Assembly (NCBI GenBank): GCA_021788625.1
Contig: JAJYKL010000010.1
Location: 1 to 64,000, forward strand
Source of the DNA: Chloroflexota bacterium
GTDB lineage: Bacteria; Chloroflexota; Anaerolineae; J036; Brachytrichaceae
Length of the DNA: 64,000 bases
Direction: 5' to 3'
Numbering within the stretch: the first letter of the stretch is position 1; each line of letters starts with the position of its first letter. The notes under the pieces were generated by a model. It was given only the letters and a program-made list of their open reading frames with translations, was not told the origin of the DNA and made no database searches. The position numbers and the translations under genes were made by a program. Positions 572-50,868 of the stretch are shown piece by piece.

Positions 572-1324
572 ATGCCAGAAACACCCTTACTTCACCTGCA
601 ACTGCGCGAGCAGCGGCTACGCCAGGACGCCGGCGGGCACAACACCTGGGAGACGTCCACTACCGAGAGGGTCATCCCGGTGCGCGAGTTGGCCGTCGTG
701 GTGTGCGACATGTGGGACAACCACTGGAGCCGCGGCGCTGCGGAGCGCGTGGACGCGATGGCGCCGCGTATGAACGAGGTGCTGCGCGCCGCGCGTGAAA
801 AAGGCGCGCTGATCGTCCACGCGCCGTCAGAGACTGTTGGGTTTTATGCCGGCACGCCCGCCCGCTTACGCGCGCAGGCGGCGCCGCGCGTCGAGCCGCC
901 CGCGCCACTCGACCACCCTGACCCGCCCCTGCCCATCGACGACAGCGACGAGGGCTCTGACACCGGCGAGACCACGCCCCACAAGGCGTGGACCCGCCAG
1001 CACCCCGCCATCGAGATCGACCAGGACCGCGATGCCATCTCCGACGACGGCCGCGAGGTCTACAGCCTGTTGCGCCAGCGGGGCATAAAGCTGGTACTGC
1101 TCATGGGGGTGCACACGAACATGTGTGTCCTGAACCGCAGCTTCGCCATCAAGCAAATGGTGCGCTGGGGTGTGGACGTGGCGCTGGTGCGCGACCTGAC
1201 CGACACGATGTACAACCCGGTCATGCGCCCCTACGTCAGCCACGACGAGGGCACCCGGCTGGTGGTCGAGTTCATCGAGAAATTCTGGTGCCCCACGGTG
1301 GACAGCCCTCAACTCCTGGTCTAG
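572..1324 (+). CDS. Isochorismatase-family cysteine hydrolase
   Basis: This is a 250-residue cysteine hydrolase of the isochorismatase/nicotinamidase fold. The start at 572 (MPETPLLHL) is preferred because the upstream part of the open frame has no family similarity. Visible hallmarks are the early acidic motif VVVCDMWDNHW and the catalytic-cysteine segment GVHTNMCVLNRSF, followed by VRDLTDTMYNP. Family members hydrolyse amides or vinyl ethers through a Cys-Asp-Lys triad, and the natural substrate is unknown. The last 110 bases of homologous sequence are repeated near 50.9 kb, where only the 3' end survives. The tail here (PTVDSPQLLV) may therefore have been supplied by an integrating element. 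The gene is otherwise intact. Confidence 0.85.
   Translation: MPETPLLHLQLREQRLRQDAGGHNTWETSTTERVIPVRELAVVVCDMWDNHWSRGAAERVDAMAPRMNEVLRAAREKGALIVHAPSETVGFYAGTPARLRAQAAPRVEPPAPLDHPDPPLPIDDSDEGSDTGETTPHKAWTRQHPAIEIDQDRDAISDDGREVYSLLRQRGIKLVLLMGVHTNMCVLNRSFAIKQMVRWGVDVALVRDLTDTMYNPVMRPYVSHDEGTRLVVEFIEKFWCPTVDSPQLLV
1184..1293 (+). repeat. Left copy of 110-bp direct repeat (candidate attL)
   Basis: This segment of the isochorismatase gene matches 50869-50978 at 108 of 110 positions, and its last 72 bases (1222-1293) match perfectly. Beyond 1293 the bases diverge although both copies still encode similar C-termini. A gene-end duplication flanking foreign genes, with an integrase next to the far copy, is the usual signature of site-specific integration. 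The exact crossover point within the repeat is not visible. Confidence 0.7.
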
Positions 1325-2475: not shown

Positions 2476-4833
2476 CTACATGAGATTATTGACACTGGTA
2501 CTATGGTCTTCTCCGTTATCCGGCATTATGGTTATGCCTTCGCTCGTTAAGCGGACTCGCCACGCCGAGTGTTCCTGTAGTCGACCTGATAATGCGAGGT
2601 CGACCAGGGGCGTCTCAACAAGCCGTTCAAAGGTTCGCCGCAGTTCGCGGGCGCCGTAGGTGGGATTGTAGCCTGCCGAGGCTACATATCGAACCGCCAA
2701 GTCATCGACCTGCAGATTCACGCTGTAACGGGTACTTAAGGTCTGTGACAATCCGCTAACCATCTCCATCACGATTTGACCCACACTCTCCGGATCCAGC
2801 TGCCGGAAGTAGACCACTTCATCGATCCGGTTGAGGAATTCAGGGCGGAACTGGTTCCTCAGATCGCATAGTGAGTCCTGTGACAGCGGGCCATCATCAA
2901 CCCGGTGTGGCCCCAAACCCATTGGCCTGTCTGACCCGATGTTAGACGTCATGATGAAGATGGCGCTGCGGGCGTCTACCGTTCGCCCTCTGGCGTCGGT
3001 GAGGCGGCCGTCGTCAAATACCTGCAAGAACAGGTCGAAAACCCTGCGATGAGCTTTCTCTACCTCGTCAAGCAGCACCACCGAGTACGGCTTCGTCCGC
3101 AGCTTGCTCGTCAACTGCCCCTCTTCACCGTACCCGATGTAGCCAGGCGGTGAGCCGATGAGCTTCGCGGGGCTATGCTCCTCCATGTATTCGGACATGT
3201 CCAGCCTGATCATGTCCGATTCGTCACCGAACAGGAAAGCGGCGAGAGACTTGGCCAGTGCGGTCTTGCCTACGCCGCTGGGGCCTATGAAGAGAAATAC
3301 GGCGAGTGGCCCACGCCGTTGGCTCAACCCGGCTTCCGCCAGGCGAATTCGGTCGCACACCTGCTCGACCGCCGTGTCCTGGCCGATGATCCGCTGACTG
3401 AGATATGGTTTTAGGCCGAGGAGCCGGGGCTTAATTCCGTCCAACTGCCCGGTGATGATCTCAAGGGGTAGGCTCATCTTTACGGCGAGAACCTGCGCGA
3501 TGTCCAATGTGGTGACGTTGGGCGCCTTCTCCAGTGTCGCATCTACGTCTGCGGGTGAGGTGAGAGTCGCTTGGAGGTCTGGCACCTGCATACGAGCTCC
3601 GGCTGTATCGATCAGGTCGATAGCCTTGTCAGGCAGCTGGTGCTCCGGGTTGAACCGGACTGATAACGCGACCGCCGCCTCGAGTGCCTGGTCCGTAAAC
3701 CGCACGCCGTGGTGCTCTTCCAGCTTCGACCGCAAGCCTTTGAGTATCTTTACGGTCTCCGCGGGACTGGGCTCATTTATTAGTATCTTGTCGAAGCGGC
3801 GCTCCAGCGCCGGGTCCGATTCGATGTGCCGGCGGTATTCGCTGATTGTGGTGGCTCCGACACAGTGGAACTCCCCGCGGGCAAGTGCCGGCTTGATGAG
3901 GTTGGCGGCGTCGAGCGCCCCGCCCTCGACCCTACCAGCACCCACCAGATTGTGGATCTCGTCAATAAAGAGGACTACGTCAGGGTGCGCCCGAACCTCG
4001 GCGATGATGCGGGTCAGCCTCTCCTCAAACTCGCCCCTGTACTTGGAACCGCCGAGTAGTGCACCCAGGTTGAGTTCGACGATGCGCTTCCCCGCGAGCA
4101 CCTGCGGGACATGCCCGTCAGCGATGCGGACGGCCAGCATCTCAACGACCGCCGTCTTCCCGACGCCGGCCTCACCGATCAGTACGGGGTTGTTTTTCGT
4201 CTGGCGGGCGAGGGTCTGTACGACCTGGAGCACCTCCTGGTCCCGTCCGACAAACGGACCCAACCTACCCGCCTTGGCCTCCCTTGTGAGGTCACGCCCG
4301 TAGCGTGACAGTAGCAGTGTGTCTTCGGACACTGCCGCGCCGCCGCCCGTTCGCTCGCTACGCGTAGGGAGGATGGCGCTCCTCAATGCCGCCGGCATCA
4401 AGCCCACCTCCTCTAGTGCGTCTGTGATGATGGCTCGTCGCTGGTCCAGGAGTGCCGCCAGGAGGTGTAGGCACGAGACGTCGGACGTCCCCGCAAGGCT
4501 CGCGGCCTTCGCAAACACGTCCCTGCAGGCTGGGCTCCTGTGCATCACGTCGTTATCCGAGTGGGCAACACCACCGCGTCCTATCCGCCGGCGCACTAGC
4601 CGGCGTAGGGTGGCCGCGTCAGTGTGATAGGGGCTGAGTGCTGCTGCTAAGGCGCCGACGTCGGCGCGCAGGGCAGCGGCCAGTGGGACGTCGTCCGTGA
4701 ATGGCAGCAATTTCTCGAGGCTGCAAATGCCGATGAAGACATGCTCCGGCTCGATGTTCTCGTGGCCCAGTGCGCGAGCCTCTTCGGCCCCGATGCTCCA
4801 CGCCGCAAGGGCGCTCGGTTCAGGATTTCCCAT
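2476..4833 (-). CDS. ClpA/ClpC-type AAA+ unfoldase
   Basis: This 785-residue protein has the class-I Clp architecture. An N-terminal Clp repeat domain spans about residues 1-150 (AALRADVG, HLLAALLDQ). The D1 ATPase has Walker A GEAGVGKT (220-227) and Walker B VVLFIDE. The D2 ATPase has GPSGVGKT and VVLLDEVEKAHRRVFD, followed by the MTSNIG sensor. The long coiled-coil middle domain of ClpB is absent, and no obvious ClpP-docking tripeptide is seen, so whether it feeds a protease is open. Its ATG is three bases after the stop of the TPR-kinase gene, so the two are almost certainly co-translated and probably work together. Clp proteins unfold or remodel client proteins in the cytoplasm. Here the clients may be chosen or licensed by the kinase partner. 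Confidence 0.88.
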   Translation of the reverse strand: MGNPEPSALAAWSIGAEEARALGHENIEPEHVFIGICSLEKLLPFTDDVPLAAALRADVGALAAALSPYHTDAATLRRLVRRRIGRGGVAHSDNDVMHRSPACRDVFAKAASLAGTSDVSCLHLLAALLDQRRAIITDALEEVGLMPAALRSAILPTRSERTGGGAAVSEDTLLLSRYGRDLTREAKAGRLGPFVGRDQEVLQVVQTLARQTKNNPVLIGEAGVGKTAVVEMLAVRIADGHVPQVLAGKRIVELNLGALLGGSKYRGEFEERLTRIIAEVRAHPDVVLFIDEIHNLVGAGRVEGGALDAANLIKPALARGEFHCVGATTISEYRRHIESDPALERRFDKILINEPSPAETVKILKGLRSKLEEHHGVRFTDQALEAAVALSVRFNPEHQLPDKAIDLIDTAGARMQVPDLQATLTSPADVDATLEKAPNVTTLDIAQVLAVKMSLPLEIITGQLDGIKPRLLGLKPYLSQRIIGQDTAVEQVCDRIRLAEAGLSQRRGPLAVFLFIGPSGVGKTALAKSLAAFLFGDESDMIRLDMSEYMEEHSPAKLIGSPPGYIGYGEEGQLTSKLRTKPYSVVLLDEVEKAHRRVFDLFLQVFDDGRLTDARGRTVDARSAIFIMTSNIGSDRPMGLGPHRVDDGPLSQDSLCDLRNQFRPEFLNRIDEVVYFRQLDPESVGQIVMEMVSGLSQTLSTRYSVNLQVDDLAVRYVASAGYNPTYGARELRRTFERLVETPLVDLALSGRLQEHSAWRVRLTSEGITIMPDNGEDHSTSVNNLM

Positions 4834-4836
4834 CGC

Positions 4837-7800
4837 TCACCGACCGTGAAGGTGATGGCGCACTTGTTGCACCTGTTCGGCCATTGTGGGCGGTGCAACC
4901 TCGATGAACTTGTTGAAGGACATGTAGGCGGAGAGGGCGTCGCCCAGCGCCTCCTCGAGACTGGCCTTCTGGTACCATGCCAGGGCGTCCCGCGGGGCCA
5001 AGCGGATGATCTCGTTCATGCAGGCGAGTGCCCCACGGTAGTCATTCAGTCGCACGTGACTGGCGCCTTTATTCCGCCACGTCTCCGTATCGTTCGGGTT
5101 CAGCTCGAGCGATCTCTGGTAGTACTGCATGGCCACTGCTGGCTGGCCAAGTCTGGCATAACTGATCGCCTCGCTTTCCCAGGTCTGGGCGTCTTTAGGC
5201 TCGATTGATAGCGATTGGTCGTAACACTGAATCGCCTCATTCATACGGTTCATCTTGGCGAGACACACGCCCTTGTTCCGCCAAGCCATTGCGTTCTTAG
5301 GGTTCAGGTTGATTGCCCTGTCGTAGCATAGCAGTGCTTGCTGCATGTCGCCCGACAGACGCAAGGCATGCCCCTTGTCGCTCCAAGCTTCCGAAAAATG
5401 CGGATTAATATTTAGGGCGGTGTTATAACAGCTGACGGCCTCACCCAAACGCCCCATGTCTATCATCGTGTGGCCTTTCACGACCCAGCAGATTTCGTCA
5501 TGTGGATCCAGCTCGAGTCCCCTATTAACGCAGGCCAGGGCTTCGGACGATCGTTTCAGCGCATTCAAGCAGTTTGCCTTTCGGTGCCACGTCGTCGCCG
5601 ACTTGGGTTTGTATTGAATAGCCTTGTCGAAGAAGGGGATGGCCTCCACGTAGCGCTTCAGGGTGACGAGGGTCAGTGCCTTTCCTTCGTACGCCAGCGC
5701 ATTCGTCGCATCATACTTGAGGGCGTTGTCGAAGCACTGTGCGGCGTCGTTGGTGTACCCTGATTCGAGTAAACTTGCGCCTTTCCCCTGCCACAGGGCT
5801 GAGTCATTGGCCCTTAGATCAAGCGCGCAGCTGTAACTCGCCACGGCGTCTGCATACCGTTGCAGTTCGATTTCGCTAAACCCCTTCGCTGCCCACGCGT
5901 TAACCAGCCCAGGATCCCGCTCCACGGCGGTGGTGTAGCAGCGCAATGCGCTCTGGTGGTCTTTGTGCTCCGTGTAGCAGTCGCCCCTCGCCCTCCACAG
6001 CGCTGCGTTGCTCTGGTTGGTGGCGAGCGCCTGGTCAAGTACTTGCGCCGCCTTATCCCACCGCTTCAGGTGACATAAAATAAGACCCATAATTTCCAGC
6101 GCATCTGGATAGTCGGGCGCAAGCATGAGCGCGCACTCGCAGGACTGCAGCGCCTCGGCATGCCTGTCGCTGTTCGACAGAATGTTGGCTTTAACCACGT
6201 GAGCGTTGGGGTATTCTGGTTGAATGTTGATGGCACGATCGATATACTCGAGTGCTTCCTGCTGCCTTCCCATTGTCGCCAGGCATTCGGATTTGTACAC
6301 CCACGCCACAGCGTTTTCGGGGTGAGTCCTGATGGCCTCCTCAATGCACGCCAGAGCTTCCTCCGGGCGCTTCAGGTTTAACAGGCTGATGGCCTTGTGG
6401 ACCAGCACGTTCGAACGGCAGGTAACGCTGGCCCTCTCCTTGACCGGCCTTAGTGTGCTGCCCTTCTCGTCGATCACCACATCCGCCAGTGCCCACGTGT
6501 CTGACGCGAGTGCCCTGTCGAAACACCTGATAGCCTCTTGATGCCGGTTGAGCGTCGCTAGCGTCACGCCCTTGATCCACCAGGGCGTGGAGTAGTTGGG
6601 GGCTAGCTGGACGGCGCGGTCACTGCACTGCATGACCTTGTCGTACCGCTTGAGCCGCATGTAGCAGTTGGCGGCGCCGTTCAAGAGGGTGGGGTCCTGG
6701 GCGTTGAGTTGCAGGGCTTTGCTCAGGCACTGCACGGACTCTTCTGTTTTTCCCAAGGATGCCAGGCTGTGTGCGCGCATCTCCAAGTCCCAGCAGTTAG
6801 GCTCCGGCGCCTTGGGGAGGGGGACCTCGCTGCCGGTCAATCGCTTGTGCAGCTCCTGCAGGTCTGTGCGCAGGGCACGCATGCTCTGGTACCGGTCGGC
6901 CGGGCGTTTCGCCAGGCAGCGTTGAATGATGGGGAGGAGCGGCGTGTCGATGGTCGGGACCGCCGCCCGCTCGTGCAGCATCCGCATGTCGTACAGAAAG
7001 CGATCCCTTTCGCTCTTCGAGCCGTCCCGCTGTGGGATGGCCATGAACGGCAGTCTACCCGCCGTCGCCATCTGGAACAGCACGACGCCGAAGGCGTAGA
7101 TGTCGCTGCGCTGGTCACACAGGGTGGCGTCCACGAACTGCTCGGGCGGCATGTGCGTGACGGTCCCCCCCGCCGCTCCTTGCGCGGTGAGCATGGGTTC
7201 GCCGGGGGTGACTAGCGTAGCCTGGCCTCCCACCAGCCCTGCGGACGGTCGCAGCACAGCCGCCAGACCGAAGTCCGCGATCTTAACCGCTCCTTCCCTG
7301 TTTATGAGGATGTTGGCTGGTTTGACGTCGCGGTGCGCCCTGATACCTTTGGCGTAGGCGTACTCCATGCCACAGCAAAATTGGGCAGCCCAGCGCAGGC
7401 TCGATTCCAGACTCGGCGGGGACCGCCGCAGGTAGTCCTCGAGCGAGTTCATGCCGTCGGTCGGCGCGACGTATTCCATCGCAATGTAGAGACGGCCATA
7501 GAACTCCTCTACCCCAACGGCGCGGACCAAGAACGGGTGGTGCTCCAGTTGTACCCAGACCAACGCCTCGCGACGGAACCGTTCCCGCACCGCAGGGTCT
7601 CTGAAGAACTCGTCCTTGAACGTCTTGAGGGCACACACGGACATCGACTCCGTTGAGATGACGAGGTAAACTACACCGCAGCCGCCAGCGCCAAGTGTTT
7701 CCAGCACGACGAACTTGCCGCCGATGGAGTAGCCTGCAGGTAGTAGGTCTCCGGCAGTAGGTATGACGGCGTCACTCAGACCTGAAGAGGCGCGGGTTAT

Positions 7801-8370
7801 GTCAAAGCCCACTTGCGGTGACTGAACCTGGGGTGCTTCATGTGGGAGAGCCCTGCCGAGTGCCTGGATTTTGCGTTGGGCATCGTTGACCCGCTCGACG
7901 TCCTCGCGCGTTGCCACTCTGACGTAGCGCTTGAGTGATTCCAGGGCCTCAGCGGCGTGACCGAGTTCGTACTCGTAGGCACCGATATAGTAGAGGGCTT
8001 GCGCATCGTGGGCGTTAATCTGGGCCGCTCGACGCATACAGGCTAAGGCCTCATTGACATCGCCAAGTGCATAGAGGCACAGGCCTTTGTTATACCAAAC
8101 GTTGGCGGACTGAGGATTAAGGCTAGCGGCTTGATCTATACAGGTTAAGGCCTCGCCGTATCGCTTCAGGTCGCTCAGGCAGGTTCCCTTGTTCAGCCAG
8201 GCCAGTGCGTTTTGGGGCTCGCGCTTTGTGCCCTCGGTAAAGTAGGGAAGAGCCTCTTCGTATCTCCCTTGACGGCTCAATTCCAATCCCAAATGCTGGT
8301 AGTTTGTTGACTGTTCTGTCGCCCGTGCTCTATGAAAAAGTGAGTCGATACCCCGCTTGATGTTCTTCAT
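4837..8370 (-). CDS. TPR - Ser/Thr protein kinase - TPR protein
   Basis: This 1177-residue protein starts with three or four tetratricopeptide repeats (about 24-150). It continues with a Hanks-type kinase domain (about 215-510) and then more than fifteen further TPRs to the C-terminus. The kinase is complete: glycine loop GAGGCGVVY (227-235), ATP-binding lysine in ALKTF (249), catalytic HRDVKPANIL (346-355) and DFG (366-368). No transmembrane segment is visible, so it should be cytoplasmic. TPR arrays bind protein partners, so this reads as a scaffold-kinase. It is followed three bases later by the Clp-type unfoldase gene, which suggests kinase-gated protein remodelling. A role in defence is inferred only from the island location. 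Confidence 0.88.
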   Translation of the reverse strand: MKNIKRGIDSLFHRARATEQSTNYQHLGLELSRQGRYEEALPYFTEGTKREPQNALAWLNKGTCLSDLKRYGEALTCIDQAASLNPQSANVWYNKGLCLYALGDVNEALACMRRAAQINAHDAQALYYIGAYEYELGHAAEALESLKRYVRVATREDVERVNDAQRKIQALGRALPHEAPQVQSPQVGFDITRASSGLSDAVIPTAGDLLPAGYSIGGKFVVLETLGAGGCGVVYLVISTESMSVCALKTFKDEFFRDPAVRERFRREALVWVQLEHHPFLVRAVGVEEFYGRLYIAMEYVAPTDGMNSLEDYLRRSPPSLESSLRWAAQFCCGMEYAYAKGIRAHRDVKPANILINREGAVKIADFGLAAVLRPSAGLVGGQATLVTPGEPMLTAQGAAGGTVTHMPPEQFVDATLCDQRSDIYAFGVVLFQMATAGRLPFMAIPQRDGSKSERDRFLYDMRMLHERAAVPTIDTPLLPIIQRCLAKRPADRYQSMRALRTDLQELHKRLTGSEVPLPKAPEPNCWDLEMRAHSLASLGKTEESVQCLSKALQLNAQDPTLLNGAANCYMRLKRYDKVMQCSDRAVQLAPNYSTPWWIKGVTLATLNRHQEAIRCFDRALASDTWALADVVIDEKGSTLRPVKERASVTCRSNVLVHKAISLLNLKRPEEALACIEEAIRTHPENAVAWVYKSECLATMGRQQEALEYIDRAINIQPEYPNAHVVKANILSNSDRHAEALQSCECALMLAPDYPDALEIMGLILCHLKRWDKAAQVLDQALATNQSNAALWRARGDCYTEHKDHQSALRCYTTAVERDPGLVNAWAAKGFSEIELQRYADAVASYSCALDLRANDSALWQGKGASLLESGYTNDAAQCFDNALKYDATNALAYEGKALTLVTLKRYVEAIPFFDKAIQYKPKSATTWHRKANCLNALKRSSEALACVNRGLELDPHDEICWVVKGHTMIDMGRLGEAVSCYNTALNINPHFSEAWSDKGHALRLSGDMQQALLCYDRAINLNPKNAMAWRNKGVCLAKMNRMNEAIQCYDQSLSIEPKDAQTWESEAISYARLGQPAVAMQYYQRSLELNPNDTETWRNKGASHVRLNDYRGALACMNEIIRLAPRDALAWYQKASLEEALGDALSAYMSFNKFIEVAPPTMAEQVQQVRHHLHGR

Positions 8371-9350: not shown

Positions 9351-9396
9351 TTTTGGCCTTGCTTCCACAGCCAAGGACGGCTGCCTTTACGTGAAG

Positions 9397-20508: not shown

Positions 20509-21729
20509 CTACACTGTAGTCACTTCCCACACGACATAATCGAGTTGATTAAGCAGCTTTCTACCTAGTTGCGGATTTATACCGAACACATAATACGCGT
20601 GCCCATATAGATGCTCACGAAAGTGAGGGACGTCATTTCGATTCTGGCTAAGTGGGCCGTACTCAACACAATTATGAATGACAGCTCGAAGCTTCCTGTA
20701 GTATTCACGTGGGATGTTGGGCTTGTCATTTACTACAAGCCCGGTCACCAGTTTAGACTGTCCGGCATAAAAGTGTTTAGTTTTGCGATGAGCTAGATGA
20801 AACCCTTCTTCATTGAGTATGCGCTCTAGCGTATGAACGAGACCTTTGGGAATCCTCTGCCCGGAGAATGTAATGTCATCAGCATAACGTGTGTAACACA
20901 GGCGCATCACTCTAGCCAAACCAGTCAACCTAGTATCAAGCTTTCGACAAGCTATGTTGGACAACGCCGGACTGGTTGGCGCCCCCTGGGGTAAGACACC
21001 ATTATGGGAACTGAGTTTGGCTAATAGTATCGCTACTGGGTACAGATAGCCCAGATCCAAGTAAATGCCCACTATACGGGGAAAGGTAATGGTTGGGAAG
21101 AAATCCTCAAGATCTACTTTTAGGATCTCCCGTGCACTGACGTGGGGAGTTGCGTTATCTACAATTGAGACTGCACGGCGGTATGCCATTGCTGACGGTG
21201 ATAAGCGTACATCCGTCAGTATGTTATCTAGTATCCAACGTTGCACCTTGAGAAGTGGATAGCACGGCGCACTGATCTTCCTTACCCCTCCATTTCTTTT
21301 TGGCACTTCAAAGTCGGTGTAACATGGGTATTTCGTGGTCGCAAGGTAATGTAGATTGCGATGTGATAGACCAACCTCATTTGCCAAGTCTTCTGTTGCT
21401 ACTAGTGGTTTTGCCCCGTTATTGAGAAGATTGAAGCAATACCAGAGCATCAGGCTGACAAGGCTTACATGCCTATCCCCCAGATTCTGCACACTAGATA
21501 CAAGCTTGCGATACTGCTCCGCCGTTTTATTATCGCGAGTGCACAGGTTTTGGAGAGCTTCTTCCGGTGTGGGTTTTATTTGTTCTAAACTGATAAGCAG
21601 GCCTCTATTTAGGCAGAATCGTATATATGTGAGGCAAAGCTCTGTAATAAGCGGGTTGACGCCGGCATCGAAATTCAGGGTTTTAAATTCACCCAAAATG
21701 GTGCGCTTTTCAGCCTTGCTGTAAACCAT
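20509..21729 (-). CDS. Retron-type reverse transcriptase
   Basis: This 406-residue RT has the diagnostic retron signatures: NATPH (192-196, the NAxxH motif), VDLEDFF (205-211), LPQGAPTSP (246-254), the catalytic RYADD (281-285) and VTGLVVN (328-334, the VTG motif). Retron RTs make msDNA from a dedicated RNA lying just upstream, and such a structured region is present at 21741-21950. About 115 residues precede the first conserved RT block, which is a longer N-terminus than in classical short retron RTs. The region is visibly more AT-rich than the genes on either side, consistent with separate acquisition. The expected role is phage defence together with a linked effector. Confidence 0.92.
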   Translation of the reverse strand: MVYSKAEKRTILGEFKTLNFDAGVNPLITELCLTYIRFCLNRGLLISLEQIKPTPEEALQNLCTRDNKTAEQYRKLVSSVQNLGDRHVSLVSLMLWYCFNLLNNGAKPLVATEDLANEVGLSHRNLHYLATTKYPCYTDFEVPKRNGGVRKISAPCYPLLKVQRWILDNILTDVRLSPSAMAYRRAVSIVDNATPHVSAREILKVDLEDFFPTITFPRIVGIYLDLGYLYPVAILLAKLSSHNGVLPQGAPTSPALSNIACRKLDTRLTGLARVMRLCYTRYADDITFSGQRIPKGLVHTLERILNEEGFHLAHRKTKHFYAGQSKLVTGLVVNDKPNIPREYYRKLRAVIHNCVEYGPLSQNRNDVPHFREHLYGHAYYVFGINPQLGRKLLNQLDYVVWEVTTV

Positions 21730-24079: not shown

Positions 24080-26119
24080 CTAATTCAGCCCCAGCGCCTT
24101 CATCGCCGCGGTCAGCGGGTCGCCGTAGAAGATCGGGTCCACGCGCTCAACGATGTCCGCCGAGACGTCCAGGAAGTGTCGCTTGTTCAGCGTGGGGATG
24201 AGCGCCCGGCGGGCGCCGTTGTCCATCGCCGCCTGCAGCGGCTCCGCCAGCGAGCGCACCGTCTTGATGTTCCCCTGGATGCTCAGGTCGCCGAGGAGGA
24301 CGAACGCCGGCAGGGCCGGCTGCCGCTTGATCGCCGAGTACATGGCCACGATGAAGGCGATGCCCGCCTCGCAAGACACGCGGTTGGTCAGCAGGTCGAT
24401 GGCCTCAACGTGGAAGTCCGTCGTGTCGAGCGTCTGGGCGATGCCCATCTCCACCTTGTGGCCCTGCAGGTAGGCGAACGCCCTCTGGACCGACTCCCGC
24501 ATGTCGCCCTCGATGCCTCCCTCGATCCTGAGCTTGCCGGTGCCAGCCGCCATGCCGACCTCGAGCCGGTACAGGCCGGTCTTACCCTGGTCGTCCACGG
24601 AGGCCGCGTAGACGGAACCCGGCGCCAGCGGGTCGGTGGAGATGAGGTTGCGCCCACCTTCCTCGGGCACGCCGACGAAGCGCTCTTCGCGTGTGTCCTT
24701 GTCGATGTACGAGAACGACGTCTGGTGGTACTCGAACGAGCCCATTTTCTTGAGCTGCTCCTTCACCCGCCGTCGGCCCTCCAACGCCAGCTCGACCAGT
24801 TCCGCCAGTTCATCACGCTCCACCTCGCCGTCGGGGTAGATCAGCTTCACCAGGCCGGACACCGTCTTGCGCACCGCCTTGGTGTCGCGCGCATTGAGGT
24901 GGCTGCCGGGCTGGAAGTGCCGGTCCAGCATCTCGGTGTAGTTGTGCCGGCGCAGTTCGTGTAGCGCCTCCGCCAGGTAGTCCACAATGAACCCGTAGCG
25001 GTCCGTGAAGTACTCGTTGCGCATCTTGGGGGCATCCCAGCCCGGGACGTAGTAGTGGATGCGGTCCAGGAAAGCCAGGTCTTCGCGGATGATGTCGGGC
25101 AGGGGCGTGAACAGGTGCGAGGAGCGCACCATCACCTCGACCGGCTGGTTGGTGTTGCCGAACATGGCGAGCGAGGCCATGCCGGACAGGGCGTCTCGGC
25201 CGCGCGCGAACGTGCCCGACTCGCAGTACGTCTTCAGGGTGGTCACGACCTCCCTCGGCATCTTTTGCAGGTCCGCCACCTCGTCGAAGGCGAGCGCGTC
25301 CCAGATGCCGACCAGCCCGATGCGGCCGGTGGCCATGTTGTAGAAGAGGTTGGCCACGGTGGTGGGGCCGGTGAGCAGCAGGGCGTAGGGGCTGAGTTCC
25401 TGAAAACCGTAGGACTTGCCGGTGCCGCGCGGCCCCAACTCGATCAGGTTGTAGTTGCGCTCACACAGCGGGATCAGCCGCACCAGGTACAGCAGCTTCA
25501 AGCGCCGGTCGAAGTGGGACGGCTCCAGCCCGATGCTGCGCACCAGCAGGTCGATCCACTCGTCGGCGGTGAAGCGCCGGCGTCCCTCACGGTACTCCTC
25601 CAGGTCGAAGGCGGCGACCTGGATGGGCTTGAGTTCCTCGATCCAGAACGGGCTGCGGCGGCCCGTGGCCTCCTCGTCGTAGCGGTGCACCAGGTTCACC
25701 TGCGCCCACAGGCCGCCCGTGAGCAGCCGCTCGTAGTCGCGGACGTAGTGCTCGGGCACGTGGACGTAGCGGTGGCCGAAGTGGTGCAGCTCGGCCCAGT
25801 ACTTGTCGTCCTCCGAGAGGTAGTTCACCTTCACCTTGTCGATGAAGGTGTGGGCGCCCTTCTCGCGCACCTGTGACTGTGCCTTGGTCGCCTCGTTCGG
25901 ACCGACGAAGTTCTCCGCCAGCGTGTCATTGACCACGCGCAGCCCCGCCTCGATCGTCATCGGGTCGTCGCTGGCGCAGTACTTCCCCAGCAGGTACTCC
26001 AGCACGAACACGGGCACGTTGGCGCCCACCTTCACCTTGCGTACCAGGTCCTTGCGCACCACCCGGCCGGCGAAGACGTCGTTGGCCTTGGCATCCAGAT
26101 CAACCGCAATGTCTGTCAT
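24080..26119 (-). CDS. brxL: BREX AAA+/Lon-like protein BrxL
   Basis: This 679-residue protein has the BrxL layout. An N-terminal domain (DVFAGRVVRKDLV, VPVFVLEYLLGKY) is followed by an AAA+ core with Walker A LGPRGTGKSY and an arginine-rich second half (FGNTNQPVEV, DRIHYYVPGW). A Lon-related C-terminal domain comes last (GDLSIQGNIKTVRSLAEPL). The start at 26119 (MTDIAVDLD) is chosen for the acaggt box upstream. BrxL is a DNA-binding AAA+ ring needed for restriction in type 1 BREX. The positions of the Lon catalytic dyad read CEAG instead of PSAG and LAEPL instead of LKEKL, so peptidase activity is unlikely. It is the last gene of the BREX block. Confidence 0.92.
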   Translation of the reverse strand: MTDIAVDLDAKANDVFAGRVVRKDLVRKVKVGANVPVFVLEYLLGKYCASDDPMTIEAGLRVVNDTLAENFVGPNEATKAQSQVREKGAHTFIDKVKVNYLSEDDKYWAELHHFGHRYVHVPEHYVRDYERLLTGGLWAQVNLVHRYDEEATGRRSPFWIEELKPIQVAAFDLEEYREGRRRFTADEWIDLLVRSIGLEPSHFDRRLKLLYLVRLIPLCERNYNLIELGPRGTGKSYGFQELSPYALLLTGPTTVANLFYNMATGRIGLVGIWDALAFDEVADLQKMPREVVTTLKTYCESGTFARGRDALSGMASLAMFGNTNQPVEVMVRSSHLFTPLPDIIREDLAFLDRIHYYVPGWDAPKMRNEYFTDRYGFIVDYLAEALHELRRHNYTEMLDRHFQPGSHLNARDTKAVRKTVSGLVKLIYPDGEVERDELAELVELALEGRRRVKEQLKKMGSFEYHQTSFSYIDKDTREERFVGVPEEGGRNLISTDPLAPGSVYAASVDDQGKTGLYRLEVGMAAGTGKLRIEGGIEGDMRESVQRAFAYLQGHKVEMGIAQTLDTTDFHVEAIDLLTNRVSCEAGIAFIVAMYSAIKRQPALPAFVLLGDLSIQGNIKTVRSLAEPLQAAMDNGARRALIPTLNKRHFLDVSADIVERVDPIFYGDPLTAAMKALGLN

Positions 26120-26176
26120 ATGCGAACACCTGTTTGGATTATGGCTTATAGCTGATGGCAAATGGCCCGGACCCCC

Positions 26177-28753
26177 CTAGAGCCCGAGCAGAGCGACCTC
26201 CACCTTGTCGATGCGGCCCAACTCAACCCCGGTCTGGGCATCGATCAGCACCAGTGTCACCGTCTTCCCTGCTATCTTGCCTGGGAGACGCAGGGTCACG
26301 TAGTTGGGCTCAATGGCGGCGGGGTCGTCGGCGGTGGGCCGAAGCTCGATCTCCTGGGTGAGCCGGTCCAGCCCATATGTCGCGTCCATGGCTTCGGAGA
26401 CCACGTCCCGGTTCTGCCGCAGCTCCACACGGACGCGCTGCGATGCCGGGGGGAACATCCCCGTCCAGCGGCCTTCCACCCGCACGGTGTAGACGCTGGT
26501 GGTGAGCTTGCGCGTGGTCGGCACGAGGCGGAATTCCGCGGTGGATGGTGTCACCGGCGCAGTCACCGACAGGGTGAGCACGGGGATGGCGAGTTCCTGC
26601 GGCGACGTGCCGCCGTGGAAGTAGGCGCGCGCGCCGCCCTGCATGCGAAACGCGCCGAACCCGACGGGCGAGGCCAGCTCCAGGTCGGTGCCGAGGCCGA
26701 GTTGGTCCAGGCGCAGCCGCACGATGCTGTCGGACTGTGCGCCCCCGCGGCCGACCCACACCCGGCGCTGCAGGTAAACCGTGTCGCCGCCGGGCGGGTC
26801 GAGTTTCATTGCTTCGTCCAGTTCCTCGCCGAACAGGTGGCCGTGGTCGGAGGTGTAGACGATTTTCTTACAGCCGTAGCCCTGCAGCACGCGCGCCAGC
26901 CGCGCCAGGTCGCGCAGGGTGCTCTCCATGGCATCGCGGGCCGAGCGGATGTTATCGCCCTCGGCCAACTGGTCCAACTCCTGGGAGGTGACCAGGATGA
27001 CCTGCGCCGCCTTCAGCTCCTTGTCCAGGTCGGTGCCCGGCTTGGGGAGCATCTTCTCCAGCGTCGTGACCGCCACGGGCACGCCGGCGCGCTGCTGAAA
27101 ATACGCCACGCGGGCTTTGCGGTCCTTCAGCAAGACGCCGCCAACCCGCACGCCCAAACCCCCGTCGCCGGTGACCTCCAGGGCGACGTCCGCGCCGTCC
27201 GCGCCCGGCATCAGTGCCGCCATGCCGACCGGCGTGGTTCCGGGCAGTGTCCCCAGTGCGACGCCCAGGCCGGCGTCGTAGTCGTCCTGCAGGCTGTGGT
27301 GCAGTTCGCGCCCCATTTCGTAGCGCATGGCGTCGACCAGCACGTAAGCCGTCTTACCTTGCTGGACAGCGGGCTTCACCCTGCCGGCGTAGACGTCGCG
27401 CTGGCGCATCACGCCAGTTACGTTGAAGCGGGTGCCGGCCAGCGCACGGCTGAATGCCTCCGCCACCGCGCCGCCGACCCGCATGTACTGGTGGCGCGCC
27501 TGGGCGAGGAGCGCCGTCAGCTCCGGCGCCGAGGCCGTGACCGGGTCCAGGCGTTGCCAGTCGCGCTCCAGGTGGCGGTGGAGCGTGTCGAGTTCACACC
27601 AGGCCTCGTCGCCCTCCGTGTAACGGCGCAACAGGTCCGCCGGTTGGGACGGCGCGCCCTTCAGCTCCTGCTCGACGCGACGGGCGTGGCGCAGCAGCCT
27701 GGCCGCCGTGCACGCCAACTGCCAGCGGTCCGCCACCTCGACCCGATACATGGGCCAGAAGCCTTTGCGGCGCCGCTCCGCGAACGCGATGAGCGTCTCA
27801 TCCGGCTGCTGGGCCAGCATGCGCTCCACGTGGCCCTGAACAACGCGCTCGACCGCCACGAACGTGTCGCTGTCGCGGACCTGCTCGAAGGCGAAAAGCA
27901 CACCGCCAACGTGCAGCGCGCCCTCGGTCTTGCTGGCCGCTTGGGCGTACGCGTCGGCGCTGGTGCGCTGTTCGCGCCAGCCGACGGCAAGCTTCACGCA
28001 TGCATCGCGCTGCACCTCGGCATCCGGCAGCGGCACGCCCGACAGGGCTGGCGGGAGGGGCGGGTGCAGGCTGCTGATGAACTCCACCGTGAGTACGTGC
28101 TGGGCGAGCCTGGCCCGCAACGCCTCGCACGACGGCTCCGCCGGTAAAGGCAGGCCGCAATACCTGTTCAGCTCGCCGGCCAGTTCAGCGCTGGCATTGC
28201 GCGCGCTGATCTTGGCGTCCAGCGCGGGGTTGGTCAGGAACGCCAGCGCCACGTCGTGCGGCGCGCTGGTGCCGAAAATGGCCGTGAGGACGACGGAGCC
28301 GCCCTCGCGCTCGTCGATATGGTCCAGATCGGCCAGGGACAGCTTTCGGTCGTCCACCTGCTTGGCAAGGTCGTTAATGCGTTCCGTGGGCAGCTTATCC
28401 TTGAGCGCGCGCTTGGCAATGCTAGAAAGGCGGGTGTTGAGGATTGAAGCGCCGGCGCCGGGCTCCAGGATGGTGGCGGTGGCCGTCAGTTCGACCAGAG
28501 CGTGGTGCGTGTCCTCGCGCGCCAGCGGCACGTAGACGACCAGCTTCGGCGGGTTCTCGCCGTTCAGCAACGGGTCTACGTCATGCCGTAACTTGAAGAA
28601 ACTCCCCTCGTAGCAGGCGAGGGTGGCATCCGAGAGGCTGAGTGTCGTGACGAACTCGGCATACTGCCGGTCGGGATCGAACCACACGACCATGCTGTGC
28701 TGCTTGACCTGCTCCGCGATGAGGTTGCGCAGGTATTCGGCGACGATCCCCAT
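26177..28753 (-). CDS. pglZ: BREX alkaline-phosphatase-superfamily protein PglZ
   Basis: This 858-residue PglZ carries the alkaline-phosphatase-fold segments AYVLVDAMRYEMGRELHHSL, ILVTSQELDQLAEGDN and KKIVYTSDHGHLFGEE, which hold the acidic and histidine metal ligands. The N-terminal part has the WFDPDRQYAEFV opening seen in PglZ proteins. PglZ is required in every BREX type, and its phosphatase- or nuclease-like role remains unsettled. The start codon overlaps the stop of the preceding pglX2 C-terminal ORF as TAATG, so translation is coupled. The gene is full length. Confidence 0.92.
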   Translation of the reverse strand: MGIVAEYLRNLIAEQVKQHSMVVWFDPDRQYAEFVTTLSLSDATLACYEGSFFKLRHDVDPLLNGENPPKLVVYVPLAREDTHHALVELTATATILEPGAGASILNTRLSSIAKRALKDKLPTERINDLAKQVDDRKLSLADLDHIDEREGGSVVLTAIFGTSAPHDVALAFLTNPALDAKISARNASAELAGELNRYCGLPLPAEPSCEALRARLAQHVLTVEFISSLHPPLPPALSGVPLPDAEVQRDACVKLAVGWREQRTSADAYAQAASKTEGALHVGGVLFAFEQVRDSDTFVAVERVVQGHVERMLAQQPDETLIAFAERRRKGFWPMYRVEVADRWQLACTAARLLRHARRVEQELKGAPSQPADLLRRYTEGDEAWCELDTLHRHLERDWQRLDPVTASAPELTALLAQARHQYMRVGGAVAEAFSRALAGTRFNVTGVMRQRDVYAGRVKPAVQQGKTAYVLVDAMRYEMGRELHHSLQDDYDAGLGVALGTLPGTTPVGMAALMPGADGADVALEVTGDGGLGVRVGGVLLKDRKARVAYFQQRAGVPVAVTTLEKMLPKPGTDLDKELKAAQVILVTSQELDQLAEGDNIRSARDAMESTLRDLARLARVLQGYGCKKIVYTSDHGHLFGEELDEAMKLDPPGGDTVYLQRRVWVGRGGAQSDSIVRLRLDQLGLGTDLELASPVGFGAFRMQGGARAYFHGGTSPQELAIPVLTLSVTAPVTPSTAEFRLVPTTRKLTTSVYTVRVEGRWTGMFPPASQRVRVELRQNRDVVSEAMDATYGLDRLTQEIELRPTADDPAAIEPNYVTLRLPGKIAGKTVTLVLIDAQTGVELGRIDKVEVALLGL

Positions 28754-30825
28754 TATTGGACCAGTCCTTTCTCGCGCATCTGCCTGCCGATGCTAGACCA
28801 CTCATATTTGCCGGCACGCAACTCATCCCAATAGTGTCGGGCCTCCCTCCACAGCACCAGTTCGTGCAGCGGGGCGATGGTGAGCACGACGCCATCGTTC
28901 AGGTCGGGCACCAGGTACAGCTTGGCCGCGCGTTCCAGCCGCTCGCAGAATTCTTGCACGTCGCCGACAACAGCCTGCTGCCGCTCCATCTCGCGGTCCA
29001 GTGCGCGCTGTTCCTTGGGTGTAGCTGCAGCACTGCGTTTGCTCTGCATCTCGTCCAGTTTAGATTGTTCACGCCGCAGCTTCGGTTCGGCGTAGTTCAC
29101 GAGCGCCTTGAAGAGCGTGTCCTTATCCAGCCGGTGGTAGTACAGCCAGATAGCGTAATGCTTCCTGGGCGATTGCAGCAGCCAATAGATGGGCGCTTTA
29201 CGGCGGCTCTTGCTGTAGCGCTTGATGTGTGCCTGCCAAAACGCGCCTTTGCGCATATAGTCACGCAATTCGCTGATCCCCAAGGCGGCGCAAACATCAC
29301 GCTCCCATATTTCGGCGCGAGGTCCGAAGATGATGTCCAGTGCGCCGCGTGCGCGGCGCACGATATCGTCAGGGTGATCAGGGTCATCTACCAGGATGCC
29401 GTCGGCATCGATGCGCAAGGGGTAGCCCGCCGGAGCGTTCAATAAGGGTAAGCCATCGCCGCCAGTGAGCATTCCTGGCGAACAGGCCGGCAGCGGGTCG
29501 AACGGATCCCACAAATTTGGCATTGGCCTTCTATCATTGGCGTAGCGAATGTCCCAGCGGCCAAAGGCACAGCCGACCAAATATGAAATAAGTCCATCAG
29601 CATGTGCTGTGAGATCGAGTTCTAGCGAGGCTTCTTCCGATTCTTCTTCATCAACATAAACATTGCTGGAATCAATTGAGGTTGTATTGGTGGCATCGAC
29701 ATTAGCCTTCTCACCGTTATTGCTGGTATTCACCAATTTGAAGGTCGCCTTCTCCTCGGGCAAGCGGATGTTGTCTTTGGTCAAGCCGTACAGTTCGAGG
29801 GCAATGCGGTCGATCTCGCACTGTCTAGCGTCCAGTTGGGTCCTTTCCTGTGCTACATACTGTGCCCAGGCTTCGGCGTGTGTAGATAGCGTACTGCCAG
29901 TGACTTGTAGGATGGCTGGGAGGTGAAAGACGTGGCTAGTTTCGTTGGCACGATCGAGATTACGCTTTATATTAAAACTCCGCTCGGCTTCAAGCTTAAT
30001 GCCTGACCCATTTATGTCAGACGGTAGTGGGATTTTTTGGACAAGACCTACCTCATACTGAACACCCCCTACCTTGCCAGCAAACATGCCCACCAAGAAA
30101 TCGAACACCCGAGAGTTCAGAATAGCAAGAAGCGACGGTAAATCGGAGGTTCTGTCTGTGGTAGCAAGCTTACCAGCAACGCTGAAGATACATCCAGTAG
30201 GTACGGCTTGCGCTGAGAGCCGTATGCCACGCAGTGGCCATGTTAGCCCTGGGCGAAAGAAGTACCTTTTCTCGGTATCCTTGAGCATCCAGACGTTTGA
30301 TCTAGTCTTTCCTTGTCCGTTAAGATTGCCTTTGATTGAAGCACCGTCGTTCTCCCAATCCACAACGGCGGAGATATCAGAGTAAAAAGGTGAATAGGAA
30401 CCACCCTTGGCGAAGATCACCCACTTCGCAGAGCCTGATAACTTCTGGATACACAATTCCCTATAGCTCTTGACAGAGTTAATATTAGCAACGTCGGTCT
30501 GAACATACATGAGAGTCTTGGGTCGAACTTCCCACCATACTCTTAAGAATCTAAAGTCATCCGCAGAAGCCAGCCCTTGTTTCACCGAGCGACCATCTGA
30601 TTCAAAAGGCGGCATATCAACAAACAGACGTCGCAGATCATCGTTTACCCAATACGCAATTGGGCTACCTGGTACTTGCCGGAACACCTGCGGATCGACG
30701 CGGAACACAAAGGGGCTGGCGGGACTGGTATTGGCGTCGATAATGACTTGTGCTAGAGCAGCAGCCTTGTCATCTGCGTGTAGTAGTCGCAGGTAAATCG
30801 CATGGTTACCCATTCGGACCACCAT
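28753..30825 (-). CDS. pglX: Second PglX, C-terminal (specificity) part as a separate ORF
   Basis: This 690-residue protein corresponds to the C-terminal half of PglX. It shares with PglX1 the blocks PGSPIAYWVNDDLRRLF, RYIR/RFLR-CWWE/VWWE, APIYWLLQSPRKHY and the closing DLNDGVVLTIAPL..YEWSSIGRQMRE. That half holds target-recognition and BREX-specific regions. It is in the same frame as the methyltransferase ORF upstream. The two are separated by 18 codons, two of which are stops, besides the first ORF's own stop. No ribosome-binding site precedes the ATG at 30825, so either translation is coupled or the gene is broken. Roughly 29.6-30.8 kb is AT-richer than its surroundings, as expected of an exchangeable recognition domain. 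Confidence 0.8.
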   Translation of the reverse strand: MVVRMGNHAIYLRLLHADDKAAALAQVIIDANTSPASPFVFRVDPQVFRQVPGSPIAYWVNDDLRRLFVDMPPFESDGRSVKQGLASADDFRFLRVWWEVRPKTLMYVQTDVANINSVKSYRELCIQKLSGSAKWVIFAKGGSYSPFYSDISAVVDWENDGASIKGNLNGQGKTRSNVWMLKDTEKRYFFRPGLTWPLRGIRLSAQAVPTGCIFSVAGKLATTDRTSDLPSLLAILNSRVFDFLVGMFAGKVGGVQYEVGLVQKIPLPSDINGSGIKLEAERSFNIKRNLDRANETSHVFHLPAILQVTGSTLSTHAEAWAQYVAQERTQLDARQCEIDRIALELYGLTKDNIRLPEEKATFKLVNTSNNGEKANVDATNTTSIDSSNVYVDEEESEEASLELDLTAHADGLISYLVGCAFGRWDIRYANDRRPMPNLWDPFDPLPACSPGMLTGGDGLPLLNAPAGYPLRIDADGILVDDPDHPDDIVRRARGALDIIFGPRAEIWERDVCAALGISELRDYMRKGAFWQAHIKRYSKSRRKAPIYWLLQSPRKHYAIWLYYHRLDKDTLFKALVNYAEPKLRREQSKLDEMQSKRSAAATPKEQRALDREMERQQAVVGDVQEFCERLERAAKLYLVPDLNDGVVLTIAPLHELVLWREARHYWDELRAGKYEWSSIGRQMREKGLVQ

Positions 30826-30827
30826 GC

Positions 30828-30844
30828 TTAACTAGTCGAGTTAA
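30828..30844. repeat. Small palindrome in the pglX2 gap
   Basis: ttaact (30828-30833) pairs with 30839-30844 across five bases, right inside the gap between the two pglX2 ORFs. It supplies two of the in-frame stop codons on the minus strand. It could be an insertion or excision footprint, or a hairpin that affects reinitiation. Confidence 0.5.
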
Positions 30845-30879
30845 TCCAAATGTGGAATGACAATAGGCTTCCGCACCGT

Positions 30880-33279: not shown

Positions 33280-33973
33280 GTGCTTCAAGGGTGCGCCGGC
33301 CGGGTGCCGGCAGTTTGCCCGTCACACCAGGTACCGGCACGACTGGCAGCGCCAGGTACCTAAACTCTCCGTTGGACACCGACTGCTCGTGTGAATAAGG
33401 TTTCCAATTCACCTGATAAGTGCCGTGGAGTGAGAGCGGTCGCTCACGACTGCGCATGGTGCCAGGCGAAGCACCCGACCCCCAGGCCAGTTCGCCTTGT
33501 AGCGTACAGCCCTCTGCCAGCCGGAAAGCCGAATCCACAGTGTGTCCGCCGGGACGTGGCCGCCAGTACTGGGCTTCATTCGTCAGCATAATGGCCCAGC
33601 CGTTGCACTGAGGGTTGGCGGTCGTTATCAGTTCGAGCCGTTCAATGTCCTGGATAAAGTCATAACGGCCGATATCCTGTACGCTGTGGTTCCGCAGGTG
33701 GAACCGTTCCTCCCGGATTTGCGCGTCGAGTAGCGCCGTCTTGTACTTCAACTCGATCGCCAGCGGCTGTGCTTCGATCACGACCCAGACGTCGAGGTGC
33801 AGTACACTGGATTCGACGGTAATTGGCAGTTCCAGTCGCACCTGTGCGCCAAGCCACTGTTGGTACAGTGCCCAGGCAAATGCGTGCTGAAAGTCGGCCT
33901 CGGAGTGGAATACAGGTCGCACCTCGCTCAGTGCTCTCATGAATCGGTAGATATCGATGTCAAGCTTCATCAT
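33272..33973 (-). CDS. PD-(D/E)XK nuclease-like BREX-embedded protein
   Basis: This 233-residue protein has the core of a PD-(D/E)XK nuclease near its N-terminus: Glu25 in SEADFQHAF, Asp61 in LHLDVWVV and Glu74-x-Lys76 in AIELKYK. The spacing fits the restriction-endonuclease-like fold. Its start overlaps the end of the HEPN gene by 14 bases, and its end overlaps the pglX2 methyltransferase ORF, so all are co-translated. Being wedged between a HEPN gene and a methyltransferase suggests that it cleaves DNA lacking the PglX2 mark, or acts as a back-up effector. That function is inferred. It is not one of the six standard type 1 BREX proteins. Confidence 0.7.
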   Translation of the reverse strand: MMKLDIDIYRFMRALSEVRPVFHSEADFQHAFAWALYQQWLGAQVRLELPITVESSVLHLDVWVVIEAQPLAIELKYKTALLDAQIREERFHLRNHSVQDIGRYDFIQDIERLELITTANPQCNGWAIMLTNEAQYWRPRPGGHTVDSAFRLAEGCTLQGELAWGSGASPGTMRSRERPLSLHGTYQVNWKPYSHEQSVSNGEFRYLALPVVPVPGVTGKLPAPGRRTLEAHG

Positions 33974-34793
33974 CTGGCTTCACCCGTGGCGCAATGGGGT
34001 GCTTCAACTCGGCGACTCGGGTAGTCGTCAGGTCGAAACACGCCAGCGCAATGGTCTGCACCGCGCCGACGTGGTTCTGGGTCCAGACGAAGTCGATGGC
34101 TTGAGGTGGCCCCATGGGATCAGCCGCAGCTCGGTCTGCCCGGTGCACGATGTCGTTGCGCCGCTTTACCACGCGCCTCAGCTTATCGCGCAGCGGCGTC
34201 TCGGTTTCGCCGGCTCGCGCGGCGATCTTGACCCAGGGCTTTTCCACGCCCAAGAGCGCCAGAGTAGCCGTTATGCCAGCTTCATTCGACAGTGTCTTGT
34301 CGGTCATGTAGTCCAAGATGCGGCGGGTGATGAAATCCCAGCGCTCGCCTTCGTCGGCAGCTTCGGCAAGCGGCCATATATCTTCCAGCTTGAGACGAAA
34401 GTCCGCCATCAAGGACTTCACCTCACCGTCGATTGGCATGAAGTTGCGTTGGCGGATCCGGATGACGTCCGGTAGGTACTCTCGCAGAAGTTGTGGCATG
34501 TACACGTCCAGCGCCGAACAAGCGGCGACAACCGCCTGCCGCAGCAGCAGGTCGAGATTGTCCCGCTTAAAGAACTTCACCTTCAGCTCCGCGCGCTCGC
34601 GCACCACACCCACGAACAGTTCATTCAACAGCAAGATCAGCTCCTCATCCGGTGCGCAGGCAATAAGTTCGCGGAGCTGTGGCATGATGGCATGGTCCTG
34701 CAGCGGCCCCTCGTCCGACTCAAGCAGTCGATACACCCGCAGTAACATCTCGGCCGAGTGGAAGTGTGTCTCGAATACATCACGCGCGTTCAT
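33960..34793 (-). CDS. HEPN-domain protein, candidate RNase
   Basis: This is a 277-residue, nearly all-helical protein. Near the C-terminus it carries RRNDIVHRAD (211-220), giving the Rx4H catalytic motif (Arg212, His217) of HEPN ribonucleases. The N-terminal half (LRELIACAPDEELILLLNEL, CSALDVYMPQLLREYL) matches the look of RiboL-PSP/MAE_28990-type HEPN proteins. A gtggag box overlaps the brxC stop, and the ATG is four bases beyond that stop. HEPN RNases commonly trigger abortive infection by cutting RNA when the primary defence fails. Presence inside the BREX operon suggests such a back-up, which is inference. Confidence 0.72.
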   Translation of the reverse strand: MNARDVFETHFHSAEMLLRVYRLLESDEGPLQDHAIMPQLRELIACAPDEELILLLNELFVGVVRERAELKVKFFKRDNLDLLLRQAVVAACSALDVYMPQLLREYLPDVIRIRQRNFMPIDGEVKSLMADFRLKLEDIWPLAEAADEGERWDFITRRILDYMTDKTLSNEAGITATLALLGVEKPWVKIAARAGETETPLRDKLRRVVKRRNDIVHRADRAAADPMGPPQAIDFVWTQNHVGAVQTIALACFDLTTTRVAELKHPIAPRVKPDDEA

Positions 34794-34796
34794 GGT

Positions 34797-38516: not shown

Positions 38517-38560
38517 TGTTTACCTCACCCTCACCTTCATCCTCACCCTCAACCTGCTGC
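38517..38560 (-). repeat. Short purine-rich tandem repeat before brxC
   Basis: On the minus strand the 40 bases ahead of the brxC ATG are imperfect repeats of ggtgag/gatgaag. They offer several overlapping Shine-Dalgarno-like sites. Slippage here could change brxC translation, although nothing shows that it does. Confidence 0.4.
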
Positions 38561-38577
38561 CCCCAGCGGGTGGAACG

Positions 38578-42465: not shown

Positions 42466-42496
42466 GCCACGTTCCTAATCTGCAATGGGTTTTCGA

Positions 42497-50752: not shown

Positions 50753-50868
50753 GTGGCCATTCACCGGACCGGGGCAACGAACGCCAGCACTACAATGCGC
50801 GCAAGATGGTGGACCAATATATTTTCAACGTCAACGTGGGTGGACGAACCGTGTCATTCCCCGTCGAG

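Follow-up and report, generated by a model that had tools for sequence, protein, structure and literature searches.

What joins a Ser/Thr protein kinase to a Clp unfoldase when their genes lie three bases apart, and does such a pair serve in defence when its neighbours do? The question is raised by a locus in the window, i.e. the whole stretch of DNA analysed here, 64,000 nucleotides at positions 1 to 64,000 of contig JAJYKL010000010.1 of a Chloroflexota bacterium. The first-pass annotation had described a kinase set between arrays of tetratricopeptide repeats (TPRs), followed three bases later by a two-domain Clp ATPase lacking a middle domain, and had taken the two to act together, perhaps against phages. 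Open reading frames (ORFs), Pfam matches and motifs confirm both genes and their spacing, although the range given, 4833-8370, covers the kinase gene while the Clp gene lies outside it, at 2476-4833 (Table 1). Because the pairing recurs across families in both gene orders, kinase and Clp are probably functionally linked; the joint action proposed earlier is thus upheld as far as such a link goes, while a complex of the two proteins is something we infer.

The kinase gene ends in TGA, followed by the bases GCG and the ATG of the Clp gene. The Pkinase domain (residues 221-501, 1e-37) is flanked by TPRs, of which a simple consensus scan counted three units N-terminal and 14 C-terminal of it, and the kinase motifs are intact, i.e. 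the G-loop GAGGCGVV, the VAIK-type motif CALK, HRDVKPAN, DFG and PPE. The Clp protein shows the Pfam domains Clp_N, AAA, AAA_lid_9, AAA_2 and ClpB_D2-small, with Walker A and Walker B of both D1 and D2, as well as the pore loops, intact. Its D1-D2 linker has no coiled-coil insert and measures 62 residues in the compared slice. The same genome encodes three other Clp proteins in which this slice spans approximately 100-165 residues, and one more, on contig C168, that is also without insert. The solved proteins closest in sequence are StkP and PknB for the kinase and ClpB, ClpC and ClpA for the Clp protein. Neither an EAD nor a CHAT domain was present among all 23 Pfam families listed for the Clp protein, or among 25 of the 34 listed for the kinase. 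At the position of the ClpP loop the window Clp reads MGLG, where many aligned relatives read LGF or MGF and the ClpC relatives LGF, and a ClpP is encoded in the same genome.

The class was searched with the window Clp (396 genomes, 33 with matches at E ≤ 1e-120) and with the window kinase domain (392 genomes, 51 with matches at E ≤ 1e-32, own genome included; wider stretches around 24 matches were examined). By comparison with 80 named loci the class is probably Anaerolineae (Chloroflexota): a ClpC-like protein of the own genome and those of two other genomes of the class are closest to a named Anaerolineae MAG (67-69 %), while two further Clp proteins of the own genome are closest to a Dehalococcoidia MAG (50-56 %). 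A neighbourhood survey of this kind had been proposed with the first description of the pair, which treated the pairing as unfamiliar. It is in fact undescribed, in that no account of a TPR-kinase/Clp pair was found in the open-licence literature, yet it is not rare: a TPR-kinase stands beside a Clp-type gene in 21 other genomes of the class, belonging to six families. The Clp gene comes first in 15 of these pairs and the kinase gene, as in the window, in six. The window pair fits the pair type as we define it, i.e. a kinase of the TPR-kinase clade described below with an adjacent Clp-family gene on the same strand.

Clp-first pairs occur in families f19 (eight genomes), f46 (four), f48 (two) and f57 (one), including G218, which was found later. 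Their kinases are open frames of around 1060-1410 residues, and TPRs C-terminal of the kinase domain were found in all four that were scanned with Pfam, while seven more match the TPR region of the window kinase by BLAST. In a Clp tree of 33 rows, a clade of 22 (98/99), apart from the ClpB and ClpC rows, comprises the window Clp together with two CHAT-Clp fusions and 19 further rows. A same-strand kinase lies within 300 bp in 16 of the 21 decidable members of this clade and five have none, the remaining locus (L041) being left out since its contig ends on the kinase side. One paired locus, L049 (genome G365; see also L068), is absent from this tree, and L022 is labelled paired in it but falls outside the clade.

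As controls we used 80 genome loci and 80 viral loci listed for Clp-alignment similarity, the former apparently mostly ordinary ClpB or ClpC by title and match; L020 and L021 were not used as controls, their Clp ORF not being recognised. No kinase lay within 1 kb of the Clp gene in any of these (0/80 and 0/80, with 1.5 kb on both sides in 69 and 68, respectively); one genome locus, L090, has a kinase 3.8 kb away. The difference between 16/21 and 0/80 gives a Fisher p of 1.3e-14, which overstates independence since the rows are related. Likewise, no kinase was seen in the flanks, of around 1.3 kb or less per side, of seven Clp loci of the class outside the clade (L018, L031, L034, L035, L036, L047 and L055).

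The kinase-first pairs belong to five genomes of family f41 (G076, G146, G208, G254 and G317) and to G153 of family f31, with spacings that range between an overlap of 16 bp and a gap of 17 bp. In f41 the TPR-kinase is directly followed by a protein with a Clp N-domain, for which the three members scanned gave weak AAA matches besides Clp_N. Among these partners, the four that are complete (511-528 residues) contain no P-loop motif G-x4-GK[ST], and in the two that were translated the Walker B sequence LFIDEIH reads LFIDNIE (G076) or LFIDGIE (G208). The N-domain of the window Clp (first 165 residues) has its best match, among the Clp proteins compared, in these f41 partners (1.2e-14 vs 1.9e-8 for the best core Clp), and it shares with them extra residues between its two repeats, an insertion that none of the four core Clps and two ClpC in the alignment has. 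That the P-loop-less f41 partners keep the N-domain and stay beside the kinase suggests that the TPR-kinase docks on the Clp N-domain. In G153, 17 bp separate the TPR-kinase from a full two-ring Clp, which is 1364 residues long and begins with an EAD7 domain (PF19960, 6.4e-19). This pair is located at L345:1135-8315, and its neighbours, read by eye, are AlbA-like and antitoxin (AbiEi)-like.

In a tree of 57 kinase domains, the window kinase falls into a clade of 33 (100/99) with all 12 Clp-first and all six kinase-first paired kinases of the tree, and with five long TPR-kinases for which a Clp was located at another locus or not at all. Outside it are the other kinases of the same genome in the tree and the CHAT-Clp-paired kinases of G055 and G088. 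The kinases of G130, G149 and G336, which are among the 21 pairs, are not in this tree, their membership being based on search matches and relatives of the same family. A smaller tree had placed the window kinase as sister to the Clp-first kinases (99/99); the larger tree supersedes this and gives the G007 kinase as sister. The window Clp, grouped with CHAT-Clp in the 33-row tree (93/79), moved when more rows were added, so no Clp sister group is claimed.

We lean, with modest confidence, towards reading the pair as one unit, i.e. a Clp unfoldase with a dedicated TPR-kinase as its adaptor and switch, of which the window copy is island cargo. The TPR arrays would bring in a target or signal and would also dock on the N-domain of Clp, and phosphorylation by the kinase, of Clp, of itself or of the target, would license threading of that target by the Clp hexamer, probably into the genome-encoded ClpP. 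Target capture, licensing, threading and hand-over to ClpP are steps that we infer from Clp and TPR-kinase biology. The window copy would represent a divergent kinase-first version, carried by an integrated-looking defence island, and its target may be a phage or mobile-element protein.

Several observations weigh against this reading or narrow it. The WTGIPV linker motif of most relatives is absent from the window Clp, and its MGLG is a possible, putative ClpP-docking loop rather than a proven one. The window Clp is a long branch without stable placement, and its grouping with the core Clps is neither rejected nor established (approximately unbiased (AU) test, p 0.28). Four genomes (G246, G341, G380 and G385) carry both a Clp-clade member and a long TPR-kinase, but at separate loci. 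The P-loop result covers four f41 partners only, that of G146 being incomplete since the contig ends inside the gene. In addition, the clade of 33 kinases includes six of family f35 and those of G181 and G007, with no Clp in the stretches read, some of them short contigs, and the AU test rejects a tree in which the window kinase and the Clp-associated kinases group to the exclusion of all others (p 1.5e-15). Inside one TPR-kinase family, Clp pairing thus arose either once, followed by losses, or more than once.

Known systems offer partial precedents for a kinase-controlled Clp. In McsB-ClpC, recognition runs through the Clp N-domain. This system, an arginine kinase coupled to the ClpC(P) unfoldase in the available part of PMC8370763, resembles the pair in linking a protein kinase to a Clp unfoldase; in contrast, the window kinase is a eukaryotic-type Ser/Thr kinase (PF00069) with TPRs and no guanidino-kinase fold, and the window Clp has no middle domain. 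ClpA and ClpC share with the window Clp the N-domain and two AAA+ rings, the MGLG of the window Clp being a possible equivalent of their ClpP loop, and ClpA likewise lacks a middle domain, whereas the window Clp is paired with a kinase. The window Clp scores below the cut-offs of the ClpA model TIGR02639 (639.5 vs 993.15 bits) and the ClpB model TIGR03346 (741.4 vs 1232.1 bits), and has no long coiled-coil middle domain; it stands apart from the ClpB and ClpC of the class in the 33-row tree and next to them, without resolution, in a larger one. OdhI and GarA are small FHA proteins, and we know of no Clp partner for PknG. Like PknG, which regulates OdhI according to the portion of PMC8546545 at hand, the window kinase is a TPR-bearing Ser/Thr kinase, but it has at least 17 TPR units and a Clp partner.

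A parallel in conflict biology is found in the EAD/CHAT systems (Kaur et al. 2020, PMC7159879; PMC8195603, both available in part), which likewise have an NTPase core with interchangeable adaptor and effector domains, and relatives of the window Clp carry EAD7 or CHAT. Unlike these systems, the window ORFs scanned contain no MoxR-vWA or VMAP family, and the Clp/TPR-kinase pair is not described in the available parts of these papers.

Several fusions of this kind were met among the relatives. In G055 and G088 (L056 and L057), a CHAT-Clp fusion that keeps the expected CHAT His and Cys is followed by a kinase of another clade; TPRs were confirmed in the kinase of L056, with genes for a TPR protein, Hsp70 and GrpE downstream. 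Large genomes of the phylum repeatedly contain CHAT-Clp fusions of approximately 1200 aa (f76, L260-L286; CHAT by Pfam in four). Three of them, when aligned with the G055 protein, have lost the expected His, while the Cys is absent in two and shifted by one residue in the third. No kinase was tagged in the six f76 loci read; therefore, we do not claim that the window pair derives from these fusions. In G181 (L331:1-8696), two related kinases in tandem, one with confirmed TPRs, precede a CHAT protein, and a protease-like partner takes the place of Clp.

That the pair is an anti-phage system, whose TPRs sense a phage protein so that the kinase fires and Clp unfolds or degrades phage or host proteins, or which acts through abortive infection, is a serious possibility that we hold to be short of probable. 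It is favoured by the surroundings of the pair. The region of around 49.7 kb between two direct repeats looks like an integrated, mobile and defence-rich island, with an integrase fragment, a bacteriophage exclusion (BREX) cluster and a retron-like reverse transcriptase around the pair, as well as AlbA/Schlafen-like, UvrD-like and PDDEXK genes and a weak Brig1-like match; an island setting is thus supported for the window copy. The right repeat copy encodes the last 48 residues of the isochorismatase-like protein at 90 % identity. An empty island site was not found; of the 27 genomes searched, two have a homologue of the isochorismatase gene, the window's own genome being one. Moreover, the window Clp appears sporadic: 60 genomes were searched with it (own included), and none of the 27 others of its family gave a match at 1e-110, though these have other Clp genes. 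The EAD7 fusion in G153, with its AlbA- and AbiEi-like neighbours, and the CHAT fusions in other relatives point in the same direction.

Table 1. Features of the pair and of the surrounding region in the window, with their coordinates, strand and basis
Feature	Coordinates	Strand	Basis
TPR-kinase-TPR Ser/Thr protein kinase, 1177 aa, kinase domain ~216-513	4837..8370	(-)	ATG start; ORF call and Pfam
Kinase catalytic domain stretch, residues 206-515	6826..7755	(-)	Pfam Pkinase 221-501
Gap between kinase stop and Clp start, 3 bp	4834..4836	(-)	Sequence
Two-ring Clp ATPase, 785 aa, without middle domain, possible ClpP loop MGLG	2476..4833	(-)	ATG start; ORF call, Pfam, motifs
Clp N-domain, residues 1-165, with inter-repeat insertion common to kinase-paired Clp-like proteins of f41	4339..4833	(-)	Search and alignment
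Left copy of 131-bp direct repeat, 3' end of isochorismatase-like gene, proposed attL	1177..1307	(+)	Repeat search, Pfam isochorismatase domain
Right copy of direct repeat, 93.9 % identical, proposed attR	50862..50992	(+)	Repeat search
Tyrosine recombinase (Phage_integrase) fragment beside right repeat	50318..50752	(+)	PF00589 6.5e-19
BREX cluster: BrxL, PglZ, PglX (one in two ORFs, one full length), BrxC, BrxB, BrxA	24080..43865	(-)	Domain and defence profile scans
Retron-like reverse transcriptase	20509..21729	(-)	retron_St85_RT 222.5 of 235 bits, just under cut-off

For the pair itself, however, the matches to defence profiles were of a generic kinase or AAA kind, and no NCBIfam defence model came near its cut-off. 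Among the 25 of 36 PADLOC families listed for the kinase (a library without cut-offs), the best match was mad6 (residues 218-552); the corresponding model MAD6 NF047741 gave 108 bits vs a cut-off of 460. The Stk2 match was confined to residues 223-434, so the earlier comparison with Stk2 is backed by generic kinase homology only, and the PD-T4-6 matches, one of them reaching residue 698, were centred on the kinase and show nothing beyond a generic kinase. PglW of BREX gave 60.7 bits vs a cut-off of 990, and the BREX genes lie around 16 kb away.

In addition, many of the paired relatives look chromosomal, which argues against a role in defence and leads to a second reading, i.e. a chromosomal module for stress or protein-quality signalling that was picked up by the island and has no defence role. 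Among the 12 Clp-first loci read widely (L058-L066, L068, L069 and L342), a second kinase is found nearby in eight, at a distance of 3.8 kb at most, and all of these second kinases fall into a single clade (100/100). The Clp-first locus therefore looks conserved and chromosomal. Several of the pairs in f19, f46, f48 and f57 have common neighbours, and downstream of the kinase a small FHA gene was identified by Pfam in L059 and by eye in several further Clp-first loci; Pfam likewise places one after the long TPR-kinase of L325 and of L329, where no Clp was seen beside the kinase. A TPR-kinase acting on a small FHA protein has a precedent in PknG (PMC8546545, in the part available). Among the kinase-first pairs, that of G208 has neighbours identified by eye as atpD, mreB and rex. 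Several further Clp matches were found in ten genomes (nine with Clp-first pairs, and G055 with CHAT-Clp), many of them split at the linker as ClpB or ClpC would be. The first-pass annotation had named conservation in core genomes beside housekeeping genes as the pattern that would speak against defence; many relatives show it, whereas the window copy does not. In fact, the window copy is very divergent (end branches of 1.84 for Clp in the larger Clp tree and 1.12 for the kinase in the 57-row tree), and its region is rich in defence genes and probably integrated. Fusions to EAD7 and CHAT among the relatives also sit poorly with a purely housekeeping role. All this leaves the second reading plausible without making it the one we would assume.

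A pathway akin to PpkA-Fha-ClpV of the type VI secretion system (T6SS), in which the pair would dismantle an assembled structure, is highly improbable. The likeness is that of a Ser/Thr kinase, an FHA protein (in core relatives of the window pair) and a Clp-family motor in one module, found together in L059 (FHA by Pfam) and, by eye, in several other loci, in line with the roles of PpkA, Fha1 and ClpV in T6SS threonine phosphorylation (PMC10482370, available in part). However, the window kinase has TPR arrays and no FHA match stands beside the window pair; neither a T6SS structural family nor FHA appeared among the Pfam and PADLOC matches of the window ORFs scanned, which comprise neither every ORF of the window nor the whole genome; and the window Clp scores 617.5 bits with the ClpV (TssH) model TIGR03345, below its cut-off of 884.95. 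Finally, accidental adjacency is very hard to credit: chance neighbours can arise, as the non-conserved Clp-kinase pair on C168 of the same genome illustrates, but the related kinase-first pairs with the same N-domain type and the control loci, none with a kinase within 1 kb, speak against it. The C168 pair (L022) was itself dropped as evidence, its kinase lying outside the TPR-kinase clade and no kinase tag standing alongside the similar Clp genes of approximately 750 aa in L248-L255, where the Clp motif itself was tagged in only some.

Some further features of the island were recorded. In the BREX cluster, one PglX is read as two consecutive ORFs (802 and 690 aa) at 28753-33288, besides a full-length PglX at 38578-42465. 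Beside the retron-like reverse transcriptase, at 15997-20483, two large proteins of 905 and 557 aa without Pfam matches are possible retron partners. Upstream of the kinase, at 9596-10372, lies the gene of a 258-aa protein with the weak match to the anti-phage glycosylase Brig1 (7.7e-6, 25.5 of 230 bits, far under the cut-off). Decayed fragments that look comM-like by eye flank the pair at 1470-1861 and 9025-9354; they are 79-91 % alike in pieces and both end near the same codon, and a DNA search of the genome gave no third copy.

Returning to the pair as a Clp unfoldase with its own TPR-kinase, it is tempting to speculate, doubtful as we consider the full generalisation, that the Chloroflexota possess an undescribed class of phospho-controlled Clp machines, in which TPR-kinases would be dedicated N-domain adaptors of middle-domain-free Clp, and in which the addition or swap of FHA, EAD7 or CHAT, or loss of the motor, would have turned the module to conflict roles, including an island-borne phage defence in the present case. 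Having lost the P-loop while keeping N-domain and kinase together, the f41 relatives make the docking hypothesis directly testable. Should the island copy give no protection against phage, it would be a warning against inferring function from island position alone; should it protect, regulated protein unfolding would be linked to defence. If the class as a whole is real, it would represent another logic from kinase to unfoldase besides McsB-ClpC and PpkA-Fha-ClpV, built on eukaryotic-type kinases and TPR scaffolds.

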